Below, one piece after another: positions 7,083 through 62,783 of a DNA stretch of 64,000 bases. Every line of letters starts with the position of its first letter. Positions within the stretch are counted from its first letter, which is position 1. Position numbers and translations under genes: made by a program. The DNA is from Planctomycetota bacterium (GTDB taxonomy: Bacteria; Planctomycetota; Phycisphaerae; Phycisphaerales; UBA1924): the NCBI GenBank assembly GCA_039819165.1, contig JBCBSM010000001.1:1550001-1614000 (forward strand), written 5' to 3'. The notes under the pieces were generated by a model that saw only the letters and a program-made list of their open reading frames with translations, did not search any database and had not been told where the DNA came from.

Positions 7083-8083
7083 CCCCGGGGCGTGAGATCG
7101 CCCGCCGGCTGCGCGAAGTACATGGTGATGAGCGCGTAGGAGCGGGATCCGAAGCGGTGCACGCTGCCGCTGACCTCGAAGGCCGTCTGGCCGCCGAAGC
7201 GGCCGACGATGTCCTCCATCGCCTGCATCGCGCTGCCGGGCAGCAGCACCAGCGGGGGCTCGGCGGCGTCCACGTTGGCGGGCTGGTCGAAGCGGAGCGT
7301 CCACAGCCCTCGATCGCGGACCATCCGCGCGCGGCGGCGGACGAGACGCTGGCCCTCACGCAGGACATCGCTCGTCGCCGACGGCTGCCCCACGCTGCGC
7401 TCGCGCTGCGCGGCGACCGGCGGCGCGGCCAGCGCACGCGCCTCCCGCCGGCCGGCCTCGAGTTCGTCGGCCATCCGCTGCAGCTCCGGCGTGATCTCGG
7501 GCGTCGCCGATGAATCGGCCGGCCCCGGCTCCGTTGGTGACTGGTCGGCCGGCTGGTCACCTTGTGCGGGCTCCACCGGCGCGAGCAGGCCGAAGGCGGT
7601 GGGCAGCAGGTAGTTGGCCCGCCGGTAGACGGTGAATCGGCCCGTGAGCCGCACGCCCAGTTCGGTGCGATCGTCGTCGATGGCGTCGATGATCCGCTCG
7701 AGCAGGCGGCAGGGCAGCAGCACGCTTGCGCGGACCTCGCCGCGTTCGTCCAGGTAGACGAAGACCCACTCGCCGAAGGGCGTCTGGCGGACTAGGCCGG
7801 GCCGCTCGGGCAGCGTGGATCCCTCGACCTCCAGGGGCTCCTGCACGCGGGCGTCGCCCAGCCCACCGAGCAGCAGCGAGCGGATGGACTCGGGGATCGC
7901 GCCATCGCGAGCACCCGCACCGGGGTCGGCTTCCTGGGCCGAATCCTGCGCTTCGGGCGGGTTGGCTTGCTCGACCGAATCTTGGGTGGATGGGCCAGCG
8001 GGCAGCGCGAGAGCGACTGTCCCCAGCATCCAGCAGCAGAATGGGCAGCACGAGACCAACCAGGTGCGTCGGCGGGGGTCCAT
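7079..8083 (-). CDS. exported protein of unknown function
   Basis: The 334-residue product starts at ATG 8083 (MDPRRRTWLV). It has a cysteine-rich hydrophobic N-terminus (SCCPFCCWMLGTVALALPAG), which reads as a signal peptide or anchor. An acidic low-complexity linker rich in E, D, P and A follows. Two predicted beta-rich segments come next (GEWVFVYLDERGEVRASVLLP and …LTGRFTVYRRANYLLPTAFGLLAPVE), then a charged helical region and a C-terminal domain with GLWTLRFDQPANVD. The phrase VYRRANYLLPTAFG is typical of short planctomycete proteins of unknown role. No catalytic motif is seen, and the Shine-Dalgarno is poor. Confidence 0.7.
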   Translation of the reverse strand: MDPRRRTWLVSCCPFCCWMLGTVALALPAGPSTQDSVEQANPPEAQDSAQEADPGAGARDGAIPESIRSLLLGGLGDARVQEPLEVEGSTLPERPGLVRQTPFGEWVFVYLDERGEVRASVLLPCRLLERIIDAIDDDRTELGVRLTGRFTVYRRANYLLPTAFGLLAPVEPAQGDQPADQSPTEPGPADSSATPEITPELQRMADELEAGRREARALAAPPVAAQRERSVGQPSATSDVLREGQRLVRRRARMVRDRGLWTLRFDQPANVDAAEPPLVLLPGSAMQAMEDIVGRFGGQTAFEVSGSVHRFGSRSYALITMYFAQPAGDLTPRG

Positions 8084-54553: not shown

Positions 54554-55348
54554 ATGCCCGTCGACATCATCGATTACCGAATCATCGGCGACGACATGCA
54601 GGCCGTCATCGTCACGCTCGACCCCGACGAGGCCATGGTGGCCGAGGCTGGGGCGATGATGTATCTCGAGCCCGACATCGAGATGGCGACCTCGCTCTCG
54701 ATGAAGGAGGGCGGCGGGCTGCTGGGCAAGCTCTTCGAGGCCGGCAAGCGGGCCGTCACCGGCGAGAGCTTCTTCATCACCTTCTTCCACAACCACGGGA
54801 GCGTGCGGCGCGACTGCGCGTTCGCGGCGCCGTACCCGGGGCACGTCGTGCCCATCGAACTAGGCGAGCACGGCGGCACGATCGTCTGCCAGAAGGACGC
54901 CTTCCTGTGCGCCGCTCGCGGCGTGAACGTGGACATCGCCTTCCAGAAGCGGCTGGGCGTGGGCTTCTTCGGCGGCGAGGGCTTCATCCTCCAGAAGCTC
55001 AGCAGCGACACCGGCCAGGGCCAGGCCTTCCTGCACGCGGGCGGGACGACGCTGCTCAAGGAGCTGGCGCCCGGCGAGAAGCTGCGGGTGGACACGGGCT
55101 GCCTGGTCGCGATGGACCAATCGGTCGACTACGCCATCGAGTTCGTCAAGGGCATCAAGAACAAGATCTTCGGCGGCGAGGGCCTGTTCTACGCGGCGCT
55201 GACCGGGCCCGGCACGGTCTGGCTGCAGACGCTGCCCTTCAGCCGGCTGGCGGATCGCATCATCGCCAACGCCCCGAGCCAGGGCGGCAAGCGGCAGGGC
55301 GAGGGCGGCGTGCTCGGCGGGCTGGGGGAGATGATCGGGGGGCGCTAA
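54554..55348 (+). CDS. AIM24-family (TIGR00266) protein
   Basis: The 264-residue protein starts MPVDIIDYRIIGDDMQAVIVTLDP. The conserved pattern is MVAEAGAMMYLEPDIEMATSL, GESFFITFFHNHGSVRRDCAFAAPYPGHVVPIEL, QKDAFLCAARGVNVDIAFQKRLGVGFFGGEGFILQKL and a glycine-rich C-terminus. The family forms a beta-solenoid-like fold of unknown function; in fungi AIM24 is mitochondrial. GAGGAGGAC directly upstream of the start is a good ribosome binding site. Confidence 0.92.
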   Translation: MPVDIIDYRIIGDDMQAVIVTLDPDEAMVAEAGAMMYLEPDIEMATSLSMKEGGGLLGKLFEAGKRAVTGESFFITFFHNHGSVRRDCAFAAPYPGHVVPIELGEHGGTIVCQKDAFLCAARGVNVDIAFQKRLGVGFFGGEGFILQKLSSDTGQGQAFLHAGGTTLLKELAPGEKLRVDTGCLVAMDQSVDYAIEFVKGIKNKIFGGEGLFYAALTGPGTVWLQTLPFSRLADRIIANAPSQGGKRQGEGGVLGGLGEMIGGR

Positions 55349-55452
55349 CGGAGATCGCCCGAGCACCGTTGTGTGGCACGTCCGGGCGTGTAACACCAGA
55401 TGCTCAGATGGACGTGCGTGCGTCCGCGACCCCGCGTCGCAGGCGATCGATA

Positions 55453-57138
55453 TTACGGACAGCCGGCGTCGAATGCGGTCTGGAAAGCCGTGAAATCGAA
55501 GAAGTTGATCACGCCGTTGCAATCGAAGTCAGCGGCGAGCTCCCCGGCATCAAAGGCATTCTGGAACGCAAGAAAATCGAAAGTCGTCAGGCTGCCATCA
55601 CCATCAATATCGGCGGGGCAGTCGCGCTCTTCCTTGAGACAACGCTCGAATACAACCACGGCCGACAACACCCCGGAACCCAGTTCGAATACCTGGAGCA
55701 CGGCCGTGATGCTGCCATCGTCGTTGATGCCATTGCTCAGGCCAGACGATTGGCCCTGTTCGTTGTTCAACCGAATCAGATCGACGGTCGCGTTTCGCGT
55801 TGACGTCGGATCGGGATCGAGATCGATCGTATCCTGATCCCGAAGCAGTACGTCCAATTGGCTGATTGCATCCGTGGCGAAGAGCCCTAAGCGTGCGGCG
55901 CTCAATTCGGCAATAAACGCCACGCGGGTATCGTCAAGGCCAGTGCCGCCAATGATCGGCAATCGCATGGAACTAAAGACCTCGCCGGCGAAGCCCGGGG
56001 CGGGATCGCCCTCGACCGCCAGCGCCTGAGGGCCAATCGCGAAGACTCGCCACGCTACATCTCCATCGCTGGTGTCGGTAATGACGGCAAGCTCATCAGC
56101 CTCGTTCATCCGCAGAGCGGGGCCTGTTGGCGGATTCGGCAAGTCCACGATGCGCCCATCCACCGGCACACCGTCGGCAAACACTGGGAGAGCATCGCGG
56201 AAGATGGCGCCTTCGAACGCAACGGGTTCCAGTTCATCATCAGTAATGCCCGCCTGGAAGGACAGCAGGCTGCCGCCAATGACGAAGTTCTCAGCATCGA
56301 TCGGGGAATAGAAATCTCCTGGATCCCCTGTGATCGCCGGGTCGTTATCGCACACGACCAGCGAATCCCCAAGATAAATGCACGGAGTCAGGGTACCAGC
56401 GCTATTCGTAAAAAACACGACTCCGCCGACATCACCGGCGCTCCCGATGATGGTGTGCACGGTGCCTATGGCATCGATCTGCTGTCCGGTCACGAGATCG
56501 CCACGCTCCACTTCGATTCGCAGGTTTCCGGGAAAGCCCGCGACCAATCCGATGGGCTCGTCCGGCGCTACCGGGCAGGATGGACAAGACCATTCCATTC
56601 GGAACGCGGCTTCGCCGCGATCGTTCATGGCGAACTCACCTTGGGACAAATCTTCAACGATCGCATTTGCCGGACTGCTGAAGCCCGCAGGCTCGCCCTC
56701 GATCGCGTACGCCGAAAGCCCAGACGCTGGCGTCCATAGCCAGTAGCTCTCAACACTGCCAATGCCGGATGCCGCATCTATGGATGAACGAAACCCAACG
56801 CGACCATCGCGACCAACTCGGAGACTCCCGAAGCTGTTGAATTCTCGGGTCCCGAGCCCGGGCACGAAATCACCCTCGCGGACAACCTCGTGAAGAACGC
56901 CATCGATCTCAACCCATATTCCGTCTGTACCCGATCCGGTGCCTGCTTCCCCGAGGAACGCAATGTCACCGGTATTGCCAATCACGGGCTCATCGCCGGT
57001 CCCGACGGCCAGGTCCCCGAAGACGTCACCGTTGGGCGAGATGTCTCCCTCGACCGCAACCGCCCGCGCCTGGCCGTGTGCCGTCGTCCCGCTGGCCGCC
57101 ACTATGGCCAGCACACCCGCCAATACTCGATTCTGCAT
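55453..57138 (-). CDS. secreted dockerin-tailed protein of lower GC content
   Basis: The 561-residue protein starts MQNRVLAGVLAIVAASGTTAHGQ with a signal peptide. The middle is beta-rich with repeated VAVEGDxxP / FNSFGSLRVGRDGRVGF / MNEADELAVITDT motifs, a pattern of choice-of-anchor-type planctomycete proteins. The first C-terminal unit is regular (DIDGDGSLTTFDFLAFQNAFDAG); the second is diverged (DFDCNGVINFFDFTAFQTAF) with a Cys in the calcium loop. The GC content is about 55% in sampled stretches, lower than the ~70% of neighbours. This suggests recent acquisition or relaxed codon use. The function is unknown. Confidence 0.85.
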   Translation of the reverse strand: MQNRVLAGVLAIVAASGTTAHGQARAVAVEGDISPNGDVFGDLAVGTGDEPVIGNTGDIAFLGEAGTGSGTDGIWVEIDGVLHEVVREGDFVPGLGTREFNSFGSLRVGRDGRVGFRSSIDAASGIGSVESYWLWTPASGLSAYAIEGEPAGFSSPANAIVEDLSQGEFAMNDRGEAAFRMEWSCPSCPVAPDEPIGLVAGFPGNLRIEVERGDLVTGQQIDAIGTVHTIIGSAGDVGGVVFFTNSAGTLTPCIYLGDSLVVCDNDPAITGDPGDFYSPIDAENFVIGGSLLSFQAGITDDELEPVAFEGAIFRDALPVFADGVPVDGRIVDLPNPPTGPALRMNEADELAVITDTSDGDVAWRVFAIGPQALAVEGDPAPGFAGEVFSSMRLPIIGGTGLDDTRVAFIAELSAARLGLFATDAISQLDVLLRDQDTIDLDPDPTSTRNATVDLIRLNNEQGQSSGLSNGINDDGSITAVLQVFELGSGVLSAVVVFERCLKEERDCPADIDGDGSLTTFDFLAFQNAFDAGELAADFDCNGVINFFDFTAFQTAFDAGCP

Positions 57139-57280
57139 ACCCGAACCTCCTTGAGTTTTATTCGGTAATTGTACGTATTCTGACCGGTGGCATCAAGTGA
57201 AATACCAAACGAAAACCTATAAAAATGCCTGGATACCTGCTGGCTGTATCGATAATGACATCGCACGGTTGATTGTTCCG

Positions 57281-59156: not shown

Positions 59157-59966
59157 CTAGCAGCCCGCAGATAGGGCGTTCTGGAACGCCAGGAAGTCGA
59201 AGATCGTGAGCGTGCCGCTGCCGTCGACGTCGGCCGCCGCGTCGCCGGCGGCGAAGGCGTTCTGGAACGCCAGGAAGTCGAAGATCGTCGCCCGGCCGTC
59301 GCCGTCGAAGTCGGCCGCGCACTCGACGGCGAGCAGCTCGAAGGTGAAGGTGCCCATGGCGGGCCCGCCGGCGAAGGGCAGCTGTCCGCGGATGTCGGCG
59401 ATGGGCATCGGCGGCTGCGTGTCTTGATTGGGCGAGATGTACGCAACGCCGCTATCGGTGCCGGCGTCCATGGGCCACAGCTCGACCACGACGCGATCGA
59501 GCCAGCCGGCGCCGTCGCGGAGCGGCACGCCCTGGCTGCCCACGAACCAGTCGGGGCTGGGCGAGATCATCGCGACGAGCGTGGCCAGCGGGAAGGCCGC
59601 GCTGGTCTCGAACTCGTGCGTGGACGCCTCGCCGCTGAGCGTCCCGATGCCCGACACCAGCGTGCCGGCTCGGCCGTCGTCGATGGCGATGCGGACCTCG
59701 CTCTCCAGGCTGGACTTCGACCCCGACTCGGCCATCGCCTCGATGCCCGGGGACGCCAGCCCGCCGACCCGCCAGAAGGCGATCGAGTCGTCGTGCGTGG
59801 CGCCGACGAGCCCCGAGAGGTGGGCGATGCGGGGGAAGTCGTACGGGTGGGTGTCGGCGGACCAGTCGGCCTGGAAGGTCACGCGGTAGGTAGCGCGGCT
59901 GTCGGGAGCCTGCGCGAGGGCCGGCGCACCGGCGACGAGGAGCAGCATGAGGGCGCGTGCGTGCAT
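59157..59966 (-). CDS. secreted Spondin_N-like domain protein with dockerin-like repeats
   Basis: The 269-residue protein starts MHARALMLLLVAGAPALAQ, a clear signal peptide; GGAGAA seven bases upstream fixes the start. Residues ~20-190 match Spondin_N: TYRVTFQADWSADTHPYDFPRIAHLSGLVGATHDDSIAFWRVGGLASPGIEAMAESG and ISPSPDWFVGSQGVPL. In animals this fold belongs to extracellular-matrix proteins (F-spondin). The C-terminus has two dockerin-like units (DFDGDGRATIFDFLAF, DVDGSGTLTIFDFLAF). It probably sits on the cell surface or in a matrix; ligand unknown. Confidence 0.87.
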   Translation of the reverse strand: MHARALMLLLVAGAPALAQAPDSRATYRVTFQADWSADTHPYDFPRIAHLSGLVGATHDDSIAFWRVGGLASPGIEAMAESGSKSSLESEVRIAIDDGRAGTLVSGIGTLSGEASTHEFETSAAFPLATLVAMISPSPDWFVGSQGVPLRDGAGWLDRVVVELWPMDAGTDSGVAYISPNQDTQPPMPIADIRGQLPFAGGPAMGTFTFELLAVECAADFDGDGRATIFDFLAFQNAFAAGDAAADVDGSGTLTIFDFLAFQNALSAGC

Positions 59967-60107: not shown

Positions 60108-60515
60108 ATGCGGGTCGATCACGTGGGCTTGGTGGTGGCGAACGTGCAGGCCGGCCGGCGGCACCTGGAGACGTTCTATCATGCCACGCCGCGGGGCGAG
60201 CCCATCGACGATCCGCTGCAGCAGGCCACGGTGTGGTTCTTCGATGCGCACGGCGTGACCATCGAGCTGATCGCGCCGCTGGGCGCCGATTCGCACCTGC
60301 ACAACGTGCTGGAGCGCAGCGGCGAGCACCTGGCGCACCTGTGCTACGAAGTGGATGATCTCGACGCCGCGCTGGCCGAGATGCGGGGCAACAAGGCGAT
60401 GACGATCTCCCGCAAGCCGGCGGTCGCCTTCGGCGGGCGGGACGTCGCCTTCGTGCTGCTTCCCAACAAGACCATCGTGGAGCTGCTGGCCGCTAGCCGT
60501 CGCGACGGAGACTGA
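60108..60515 (+). CDS. VOC-family protein, methylmalonyl-CoA epimerase-like
   Basis: The 135-residue protein starts MRVDHVGLVVANVQAGRRHLETFY. It has the family pattern of a small glyoxalase-fold enzyme: VWFFDAHGVTIELIAPLG, HLHNVLERSGEHLAHLCYEVDDLDAAL and VAFVLLPNKTIVELLAA. The His/Glu ligand spacing (DHVG … IELI … HLCYEV … VELL) resembles methylmalonyl-CoA epimerase. If so it would work with propionyl-CoA carboxylase-type enzymes such as the carboxyltransferase at 11695. It overlaps the 3' end of the convergent small gene by 23 bases. The upstream GTGCATG gives no clear ribosome binding site. Confidence 0.8.
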   Translation: MRVDHVGLVVANVQAGRRHLETFYHATPRGEPIDDPLQQATVWFFDAHGVTIELIAPLGADSHLHNVLERSGEHLAHLCYEVDDLDAALAEMRGNKAMTISRKPAVAFGGRDVAFVLLPNKTIVELLAASRRDGD

Positions 60516-60753
60516 TCCAGACGTCGTCGAGCAGGCCCGACCGCACGACCGCGCCGGCCGACGGGTCGCGGACCGCCTCGGCGATCTCGGCGAGCAGCAG
60601 GGCGAGTTGGTCGGGCGGCAGCCCCTCGCCCTCGAACAAGCCCGGCACCTCTGGGATGGGGCTCAGCCCGTGCGCCTCGAGCGTGGCGGCGGGCACGAAC
60701 GGCTCGGCCGCGGGCGTGGCGTTGAGGCGGATGGCGATGGCGAAGGTGGGCAT
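60493..60753 (-). CDS. small protein of unknown function
   Basis: The 86-residue product starts MPTFAIAIRLNATPAAEPFVPA at ATG 60753. GGAGA seven bases upstream supports this over the in-frame ATG at 60813, whose extra residues fall in the AT-rich region. No membrane segment or known motif is seen. The C-terminus is LAEIAEAVRDPSAGAVVRSGLLDDVWISLRRDG. The gene overlaps the convergent VOC gene end (60493-60515), which is uncommon. It lies next to, and on the same strand as, the HEPN-like gene. Confidence 0.55.
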   Translation of the reverse strand: MPTFAIAIRLNATPAAEPFVPAATLEAHGLSPIPEVPGLFEGEGLPPDQLALLLAEIAEAVRDPSAGAVVRSGLLDDVWISLRRDG

Positions 60754-60826
60754 GGAAGGTCTCCATTTTCTGCGACCAATGTTGGCCAAGCAGCCAAACA
60801 AGCCCATGCTCACGGAACATCGCGGA

Positions 60827-61489
60827 CTACTTCAGCGACTCGACAATACGACCATCTATGCTCTTGATCAGTTCGATAGCGACCTTCTGAAGGGCCTCGC
60901 ATGCCAGAATTATATCTCGCCACCTTCGCGACGTGCGGTTGCGATTAGGCGATTCGAAATCCATGTCAAGTTCATGTATAATTTTATTGCGAATCTCAAG
61001 TGCCTTCTTGATCTCTGCTTCATGTGATTTCGACAGCTTATTACAACCAAAGACCTCGAATATCTTCTGTATCTCACCCAACGACTGCAAGCTCGAGCCC
61101 GTCAAACTGCGCTGATACTTCTTCAGTAGATGCTCGCGCGGACGCAGACTAACGAGCGTCTCGGAAAGCTCTCTAGCAATCGCGATTTGAGATTCACCCT
61201 TGAGCCGACGCTCAACAAACTTGCAAAAACCATCTTGCGCTTCAGGAAAAGCAGCGATGGCATCTTCGAGCGCATCTTTGATACTCTGCTTCAGACACGC
61301 ATCCACCCCGGCGCCAACAAAAACGATCGCAGCGCGAAGAAGATCCTGATCTTCATGGGTTGGAGCGCCAGGACCGCGAGCTGACGTAGCTTCAAAATAG
61401 ATGTCCAGGAAGCTAGACGCGGACTCATGCGAATACTGCAGCGTCTTGTACGCCGACTGCAGTGCTGAGGAGCGAGGAGGACTAGGCAA
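60827..61489 (-). CDS. HEPN-like RNase-type protein on an AT-rich island
   Basis: The 220-residue helical protein has RNKIIH at residues 167-172 within KALEIRNKIIHELDMDFESPNR, the RxxxxH motif of HEPN ribonucleases, and an N-terminal RAAIVFVGAGVDACLKQSIKDAL helix pair typical of RiboL-PSP/HEPN proteins. It may be an RNA-cleaving defence or toxin protein. No clear antitoxin (for example MNT) is adjacent. Sampled stretches are 37-50% GC against ~70% around, so it is likely transferred. The start is TTG 61489; an alternative CTG at 61531 sits eight bases after a good AAGGAGG, and no ATG is available, so the N-terminus is uncertain. Confidence 0.72.
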   Translation of the reverse strand: MPSPPRSSALQSAYKTLQYSHESASSFLDIYFEATSARGPGAPTHEDQDLLRAAIVFVGAGVDACLKQSIKDALEDAIAAFPEAQDGFCKFVERRLKGESQIAIARELSETLVSLRPREHLLKKYQRSLTGSSLQSLGEIQKIFEVFGCNKLSKSHEAEIKKALEIRNKIIHELDMDFESPNRNRTSRRWRDIILACEALQKVAIELIKSIDGRIVESLK

Positions 61490-61589
61490 ATCGCTCAGCC
61501 GCTGCTCAGGCTTTCTTTGATCGCCAGCCAGTCTAGAGCCCTCCTTTGATCACGTGCTTTCGCATCTAGTGCGGAGTCAATGTACTAAT

Positions 61590-62783
61590 TTACAGATTCC
61601 CCCGCCGCTCCTGCTCCAGCTCCAGCGCTTCGAAGAGCGCCTTGAAGTTGCCCTTGCCGAAGCTCTGGCTGCCGCGGCGGGCGATGATCTCGAAGAAGAG
61701 CGTCGGGCGGTCCTGGAGGGGCTTGGTGAACAGCTGGAGCAGGTAGCCCTCGTCGTCGGCGTCGACGAGGATGCCCAGGTCCTTCACCCGCTCGTGGTCC
61801 TCCTTGACGAGTTCGTGGCCGTGCTCCTTCAGCGTGCCGTTGACGCGATCCCACACCGCCTCGTAATAGGCATCAGGCAGGGTGAGGAAGTCCACGCCGC
61901 GGCGGCGGAGTTCGGCGACGGAGTGCAGCTCGTCATCGGTGCGGAGGGCCAGGTGCTGCACGCCGGGGGTCATGCTGTGCCACTCCAGGTATTCCTGGAT
62001 CTGGCTCTTCTTCTTGCCCTCGGCGGGCTCGTTGATCGGCATCTTGATGAGGTTGTTGCCGCTGGCCATGACCTTGGACATGAGGGCCGAGTACTCGGTG
62101 GAGATGTCCTTGTCATCGAAGTGCTTGAACATGCTGAAGCCCAGCACCTCCTCGTACCAGCCGACCCAGTGGTTCATCTTGCCCTCTTCGACGTTGCCCA
62201 CGCAGTGGTCGACGAAGCGCAGGCCGCAGGGATTGGCCTTGTTGTACTCGTTGAGGGCGAAGGCCCCGAAGGGCTTGAAGCCCGGGGCGAACGTGCCGCC
62301 GTTCTTGATCTCGTCGAGGGCGTACCTGCCGCTGCGGCTGACGAAGCTGTGGCGGGCACGGCCGTAGGTCTTGATGCCGGCGGTGGTGATGCTGCCGTGC
62401 TCGTCGTTGCGGGTGACGGGCTCGTAGGCGCTCTCGCCGCCGTTCTTGATGGCCTGCTCGTAGGCGGCCTCGGCGTCGTCGACGGTGAGGGCGACGTCCT
62501 TGACGCCGTCGCCGTAGGCGCGCAGCTCGTCCTGGATGGGATGGTCGGCCGTCAGCGGGGTGGTCAGCAGGAAGCGGATGTTGCCCTGGCTCAGCAGGTA
62601 CTCGGCGGTGTCGCGGTTGCCGGTGGTCAGGTCGTTGACCTGCTGGACCTGGAAGCCGAAGAGCTGGGCGTAGAAGACGGCGGCCTGCTTGGCGTTGCCG
62701 ACGTAGAAGCGGACGTGGTCGATGTCGATCAGGCTCAACGGATCGGTGGCGGTGGCGGCCGAGGTGGTGGCGGCGGTGGTCAT
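61590..62783 (-). CDS. hppD: 4-hydroxyphenylpyruvate dioxygenase
   Basis: The 397-residue non-haem Fe(II) enzyme converts 4-hydroxyphenylpyruvate to homogentisate in tyrosine breakdown. It is a double VOC-fold protein. The iron ligands are seen as a His in RFVDHCVGNVEE, a His in GVQHLALRTDD and a Glu in LFFEIIARRG. The conserved GFGKGNFKALFEALE-type C-terminus (here SFGKGNFKALFEAL) closes the active site. GGAG eight bases upstream of ATG 62783 supports the start. No homogentisate dioxygenase is in the window. It is upstream of the AT-rich HEPN-like gene on the same strand. Confidence 0.96.
   Translation of the reverse strand: MTTAATTSAATATDPLSLIDIDHVRFYVGNAKQAAVFYAQLFGFQVQQVNDLTTGNRDTAEYLLSQGNIRFLLTTPLTADHPIQDELRAYGDGVKDVALTVDDAEAAYEQAIKNGGESAYEPVTRNDEHGSITTAGIKTYGRARHSFVSRSGRYALDEIKNGGTFAPGFKPFGAFALNEYNKANPCGLRFVDHCVGNVEEGKMNHWVGWYEEVLGFSMFKHFDDKDISTEYSALMSKVMASGNNLIKMPINEPAEGKKKSQIQEYLEWHSMTPGVQHLALRTDDELHSVAELRRRGVDFLTLPDAYYEAVWDRVNGTLKEHGHELVKEDHERVKDLGILVDADDEGYLLQLFTKPLQDRPTLFFEIIARRGSQSFGKGNFKALFEALELEQERRGNL

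Follow-up and report, generated by a model that had tools for sequence, protein, structure and literature searches.

The DNA analysed here, a window of 64,000 bp from a planctomycete genome of the class Phycisphaerae, carries a gene for a HEPN-type protein in an AT-rich slot directly behind hppD, the gene for 4-hydroxyphenylpyruvate dioxygenase (HPPD). We read this gene as a lone HEPN abortive-infection effector that was acquired horizontally and occupies a recurrent single-gene slot behind hppD, with a probability of roughly 0.6. The slot behind hppD is most likely a recurrent single-gene insertion hotspot in the family (class Phycisphaerae). The features of the locus are listed in Table 1.

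Table 1. Features of the slot behind hppD and of its flanks (positions in the window)
Feature	Position	Strand	Evidence or remark
Small conserved gene, family unassigned, right flank of the slot	60493..60753	-	Same flank in G002 and G005
AT-rich insertion slot	60754..61589	.	Between hppD stop (61590) and small-gene start (60753)
HEPN (RiboL-PSP type) gene	60827..61531	-	PF18735 29.1 bits; AlphaFold2 model; top VIA-align matches are HEPN toxins
RxxxxH motif RNKIIH, followed by E187 and D189	60974..60991	-	R181, H186 and D189 unchanged across 7 aligned sequences
Shine-Dalgarno sequence AAAGGAGG	61540..61547	-	8 nt upstream of CTG 61531; sequence
hppD 3' tail, stretch duplicated in 7 related genomes	61590..61735	-	No copy in the window
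hppD, left flank of the slot	61590..62783	-	TIGR01263 392.5 bits, cut-off 277

The GC profile showed that the island is the sole place in the 64-kb window with a 700-bp GC below 0.53. The minimum, at position 60750, was 0.503; the window as a whole averages 0.703 (sd 0.041). The sequence-only reading had described an AT-rich island at 60754-61589, and these coordinates proved nearly exact, being the interval between the flanking genes. The island is AT-rich as described, but the GC range of 37-50% given for it was slightly low: the GC content of the HEPN ORF is 51%, and the 100-bp bins range from 43 to 59%. The GC3 of the ORF was 0.54 versus 0.96 in the neighbouring HPPD gene. A second, milder GC dip (0.57-0.60) was seen at 55250-57250 over a 561-aa secreted protein, the C-terminal dockerin-like repeat of which resembles, by eye, that of a spondin-domain protein at 59157.

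The island holds a single intact open frame of 240 codons, which ends at 60827 on the minus strand; the longest frame in 500 base shuffles was 185 codons. The non-ATG start reported earlier was confirmed. The protein has 234 aa when counted from CTG 61531 and 220 aa when counted from TTG 61489. CTG 61531 was preferred because a strong Shine-Dalgarno sequence lies 8 nt upstream of it and the relatives align upstream of TTG, and it is probably the true start. On the HEPN strand, a consensus scan detected no promoter, and it saw no terminator in the interval from hppD to the HEPN gene; transcription may therefore read through from hppD.

The HEPN protein matched the Pfam model PF18735 (HEPN_RiboL-PSP) with 29.1 bits (E 1.2e-6), 0.7 bits above the curated cut-off of 28.4. 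The match spans 143 residues and includes the RxxxxH helix. The relatives scored 35.4, 32.0, 27.9, 23.9, 19.6 and 18.3 bits against the same model, several of them below the cut-off. No fused domain was matched. The motif RNKIIH lies at R181-H186 in the 234-aa protein and at R167-H172 in the 220-aa protein; the histidine numbering given earlier, H172, is therefore correct if counted from TTG 61489 and corresponds to H186 from CTG 61531. Invariant in all seven aligned members were R181, H186 and D189 (R-x4-H-x2-D), together with D63, R66 and D77. The alignment also revealed conserved stretches peculiar to the subfamily (QDLLRAAIVF..AG.D and LTG.SLQS).

The AlphaFold2 model (five sequences) was all-helical, in line with the earlier description of a helical protein, with a pLDDT of 85.7 and a pTM of 0.82. 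In VIA-align, ranks 1, 2 and 4 were the HEPN toxin entries 7ae8, 7ae6 and 7ae2, and rank 3 was YutE. The Z scores of these four ranged from 9.3 to 8.5, and those of sacsin HEPN, Csm6 and AbiV were lower, down to 6.7. A Z of about 9 is modest for helical bundles, so the HEPN fold is supported, not proven. Foldseek returned no significant match to the PDB, its top rows being unrelated helical proteins, and a sequence search of solved structures gave a chance-level match only. No PADLOC model matched the protein. Profile, motif and predicted fold agree and support the HEPN identity. Judged by its profile match, the gene is a new, divergent member of the known family PF18735. The same model is matched by the window protein and its relatives; the window protein stands barely above the cut-off and belongs to a divergent subfamily, marked by the conserved stretches given above. 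A literature search for HEPN proteins of the RiboL-PSP type found no paper.

The HEPN gene is present as a single copy in its own genome, within a contig of 2.6 Mb. It was absent from all six congeners and from 54 other relatives (0/60). Profile searches detected this type of HEPN gene in 2 of 392 genomes of the phylum, one of them the window genome. With the window genome counted, the numbers were 5/397 for the class and 2/163 for the family, where the other genome gave a weak match. The comparison with sister genomes thus agreed with the earlier suggestion of a recent acquisition. As far as sequence comparison can tell, the gene was acquired recently by horizontal transfer, as a single gene. 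An old native gene of unusual composition, or a non-catalytic housekeeping HEPN protein, is a barely credible alternative. Some members of the HEPN domain do carry a degraded motif (PMC3710099), but here the R and H of the motif are invariant, the GC3 departs strongly from that of the gene next door, and the gene is missing from every congener and from nearly the whole family.

The relatives of the HEPN protein were found in various settings. One sits in a Druantia-like island, flanked by a DrmMI-like methylase on one side and a Druantia-type DruE3 helicase on the other. Another adjoins a phage integrase in a viral contig, and a third immediately follows an Eco57I-type restriction enzyme, within a cluster that looks defence-like. 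Two Streptomyces plasmids also carry relatives, one of them with an AbiV-annotated gene two genes away. The viral contigs gave no match when scanned with the single HEPN protein and three loci when scanned with the HEPN alignment; a larger alignment added none. At L013:7502-8900, the start of a DruE-like helicase is present twice beside a HEPN relative (truncated at 7502-7981, then again from 8688). This looks like a HEPN insertion with partial duplication, akin to the hppD tail copies described below.

The gene hppD is present in the window genome and in all six congeners. Both flanks of the slot, hppD and the small gene, are common to the window genome (G000), G002 and G005, and the slot contents differ: the HEPN gene in G000, a 326-aa coiled-coil membrane protein in G002 and a 150-aa DMP19 protein in G005. 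The small gene encodes 86 aa and occurs in 3/7 congeners; in G002 it adjoins a PilZ gene. It had no match in Pfam, NCBIfam or PADLOC.

For 101 genomes of the family with no less than 3.5 kb of sequence, the GC content of the 600 bp that follow the hppD stop codon was compared with the local background. It was on average 4.6 GC points below the background (Wilcoxon p = 8e-10, with genomes of the same genus not being independent). A deficit of more than 8 points was found in 29 of the 101 genomes, and an equally large excess in none. The 8-point cut was chosen on the first 48 genomes, and the later 53 served as a repeat set. This second set alone gave 13 genomes below and 0 above (p = 7e-6). Among other ORF ends in the same stretches, used as the control, 3 of 241 were more than 8 points below (Fisher p = 4e-14). 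Beyond about 1 kb behind hppD, approximately one gene length, the deviation is lost. In the first set, similar cargo was confined to two small groups, of which one was a clear pair (G018, G624). The hppD slot is a new form of the known gene-end hotspots, here documented at the level of a family. A literature search, with subscription papers outside its coverage, found nothing on an hppD insertion hotspot, and the slot is apparently previously undescribed.

The AT-rich cargo behind hppD consists mostly of single genes, usually on the hppD strand, which start close after the hppD stop. The cargo genes are mostly unrelated to one another, and several are defence-like. Matches were obtained to FRG (62 bits; PADLOC candidate PDC-S15, E 8e-30), RelA_SpoT (41.8 bits), HNH (37.7 bits) and DUF4145 (25.8 bits, cut-off 23.1). 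An AAA_15/OLD-like protein (65.9 bits) lies behind the tail copy of G783. Weak matches were seen to an RT-associated HEPN in the cargo of G029 and to AbiEii/WYL-type proteins in that of G036. Many cargo proteins had no family match. Among the matches listed for 24 genomes, no tyrosine recombinase was found near hppD, and tyrosine integrases are present in all 24. By eye, four genomes have REP-associated tyrosine transposase-like proteins no more than about 2 kb behind hppD: L108 (G788), L106 (G022), L117 (G781) and L159 (G808).

Searches with full-length hppD gave stray C-terminal matches downstream of an intact hppD in G776, G783 and G748. The last 49 residues of hppD were then searched against the 163 family genomes, with an N-terminal stretch of 49 residues as the control. 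An extra tail copy was present in 7 of the 143 hppD-bearing genomes (G776, G783, G748, G826, G828, G810 and G841), and an extra N-terminal copy in 0/143. Six of the tail copies lie 0.3-2.3 kb downstream of hppD in direct orientation; that of G828 is at the end of another contig, which is compatible with the same order. Several genomes show the order hppD, cargo, hppD tail and further DNA. G841 has a possible second, more decayed tail copy further downstream, and G787 has a short decayed copy near background level. At the DNA level, direct repeats scoring at least 14 were found in 10/118 regions and in 0/118 of the inverted controls, although scores of 15-16 may be due to chance.

The point at which a tail copy begins varies from 70 to 145 bp before the hppD end. 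In G828, the first 90 bp of the copy are identical to the original tail and the last 40 differ; the last 40 bp of the G776 copy likewise differ more. These differences hint at an exchange upstream of the last 45 bp of hppD. The second-last codon of hppD was AAT in 15/19 cargo genomes versus 12/27 others (p 0.03), which is suggestive, and the GC3 of the hppD tail was slightly lower in cargo genomes (p 0.08). The hppD end G-N-L is often written GGG AAT CTG, although the other Asn codons of hppD are almost always AAC. The window has no hppD tail copy, and its best direct repeat scored 11, the level of the inverted control and background. For the HEPN gene, entry by the tail route is therefore suggested by its position.

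Tail copies and odd downstream regions might also arise from mis-assembly of metagenome-assembled genomes, many of which are fragmented, and the G828 copy does lie at a contig end. This explanation is very improbable, however, as other copies lie inside long contigs (653 kb in G748 and 124 kb in G826), the copies differ in sequence from the intact tail, and the N-terminal hppD stretch is never involved. The HEPN gene of the window itself lies well inside an assembled contig of megabase size.

We propose that the slot behind hppD would repeatedly receive one foreign AT-rich gene, usually in the direction of hppD. With some insertions, additional copies of the terminal 70-145 bp of hppD would be left behind or brought along, and the hppD tail may be where the exchange happens. 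A serious rival to a dedicated cassette process is ordinary homologous recombination within the flanking genes: the content of the slot would change through allele replacement between related bacteria, and the tail copies would be accidental partial duplications. This is a real possibility, at somewhat less than even odds. It would fit the three genomes G000, G002 and G005 with the same flanks and different content, the variable beginnings of the tail copies, and the lack of a tyrosine recombinase among the listed matches near hppD. It fits less well with the right flank, which varies, the small gene adjoining hppD in just three of seven congeners; because this flank differs between genomes, flank exchange alone cannot explain loading across genera. 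The confinement of the copies to the 3' end, the direct orientation and short distance of six of them, and the compatible contig end of the seventh also argue against accidental duplication.

A more tentative and rather doubtful proposal is that an undescribed system of single-gene cassettes uses hppD as its loading site, and that the HEPN gene of the window would be one such cassette. The cassettes would be small and integrase-less, and each would combine a single gene, in many cases a defence-type one, with an hppD tail. One after another they would enter at the hppD 3' end, with the recombination activity provided in trans. In the resulting arrays, older cassettes and tails in decay would be the ones more distant from hppD.

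By analogy, the nearest known arrangement to the hppD slot would be the accretion of CIMEs, cis-mobilizable elements that accrete in tandem at the 3' end of a target gene (PMC5704250). In both cases, cargo without recombination genes lies in tandem between copies of the target-gene 3' end, and CIME-type direct repeats of the hppD 3' end flank cargo in seven genomes, in one of them across a contig break. The hppD slot differs in that its cargo is mostly single-gene, its tail copies measure 70-145 bp, and its target is a metabolic gene, hppD, across many genera of one family. Moreover, no integrase-bearing element was found near hppD among the listed matches of the 24 genomes. Integron arrays also load single, mostly co-directional foreign genes at one fixed point. 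The hppD cargo resembles them in being single and mostly co-directional, with one loading point and older genes apparently further away, but the hppD site is a coding 3' end and no integron integrase was seen nearby.

The gene was previously described as lacking a recognisable antitoxin and as a possible lone effector, and both statements held. No antitoxin (MNT or other) or partner was recognised beside the HEPN gene of the window, whose neighbours are the HPPD gene and the small gene without a family match. Three relatives (G482, G099 and G450) have another small gene immediately before the HEPN gene. Between G482 and G099 the resemblance of these genes is clear (36% identity, E 1e-24), and the G450 gene shows a short, weak similarity to the other two (36% over 39 residues, E 2e-4). 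Profile matches to the GIY-YIG clan (T5orf172, MUG113) were weak and below the cut-off, so that one of the three genes can be called distantly GIY-YIG-like. In G099 (L026:7419-8606), the pair of small gene and HEPN gene lies, by eye, directly behind ftsA in a cell-wall/division cluster, and the HEPN gene has a GC of 0.55 versus about 0.64 in its neighbours.

Such pairs raise the alternative that the HEPN gene belongs to a toxin-antitoxin pair or a defence system of two genes, and that its partner was lost or replaced here. The small upstream gene of the three relatives, together with the weak GIY-YIG-clan matches, would speak for it. We consider it unlikely: the small gene is missing at the window, the Druantia-like locus, the viral contig, the plasmids and G501, and a search of the whole window genome did not find it (best E 0.9). 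A partner would thus be optional at best, and a HEPN toxin that requires its antitoxin is not expected to survive alone. The sequence-only reading included neither the slot behind hppD nor this small upstream gene; its observation was confirmed, and its HEPN interpretation is supported.

The HEPN protein is probably an RNA-cutting anti-phage effector, the RNase activity and the defence role being what we infer for it. It would act as a dimer with an R-x4-H active site and would be held inactive in the uninfected cell. A phage component would presumably switch it on, and the activated protein would cut cellular or viral RNA, leading to growth stop or cell death. This course has been shown for Tha, which S. 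aureus prophages encode as a one-gene HEPN defence: infection activates the protein, and growth stops or the cell dies (motif RNSIMH; PMC11087260). Tha and the window protein are alike in being encoded by a single gene, in the R-x4-H motif (RNSIMH and RNKIIH, respectively), in the HEPN fold and in the mobile-element setting, since one relative of the window protein adjoins a phage integrase. Unlike for the phage-borne Tha, a search of 50,697 phage records (E 0.01) found nothing that matched the window HEPN family. The likeness may concern the mode of action, not family membership.

If the slot is real, one fixed position per genome of the family would provide a list of candidate single-gene immune effectors. 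The slot has so far yielded HEPN, FRG, RelA/SpoT, OLD-type ATPase and HNH proteins and many proteins without a known family. It also poses a mechanistic question, namely by what means single genes enter at a protein-coding 3' end when no integrase is seen nearby.
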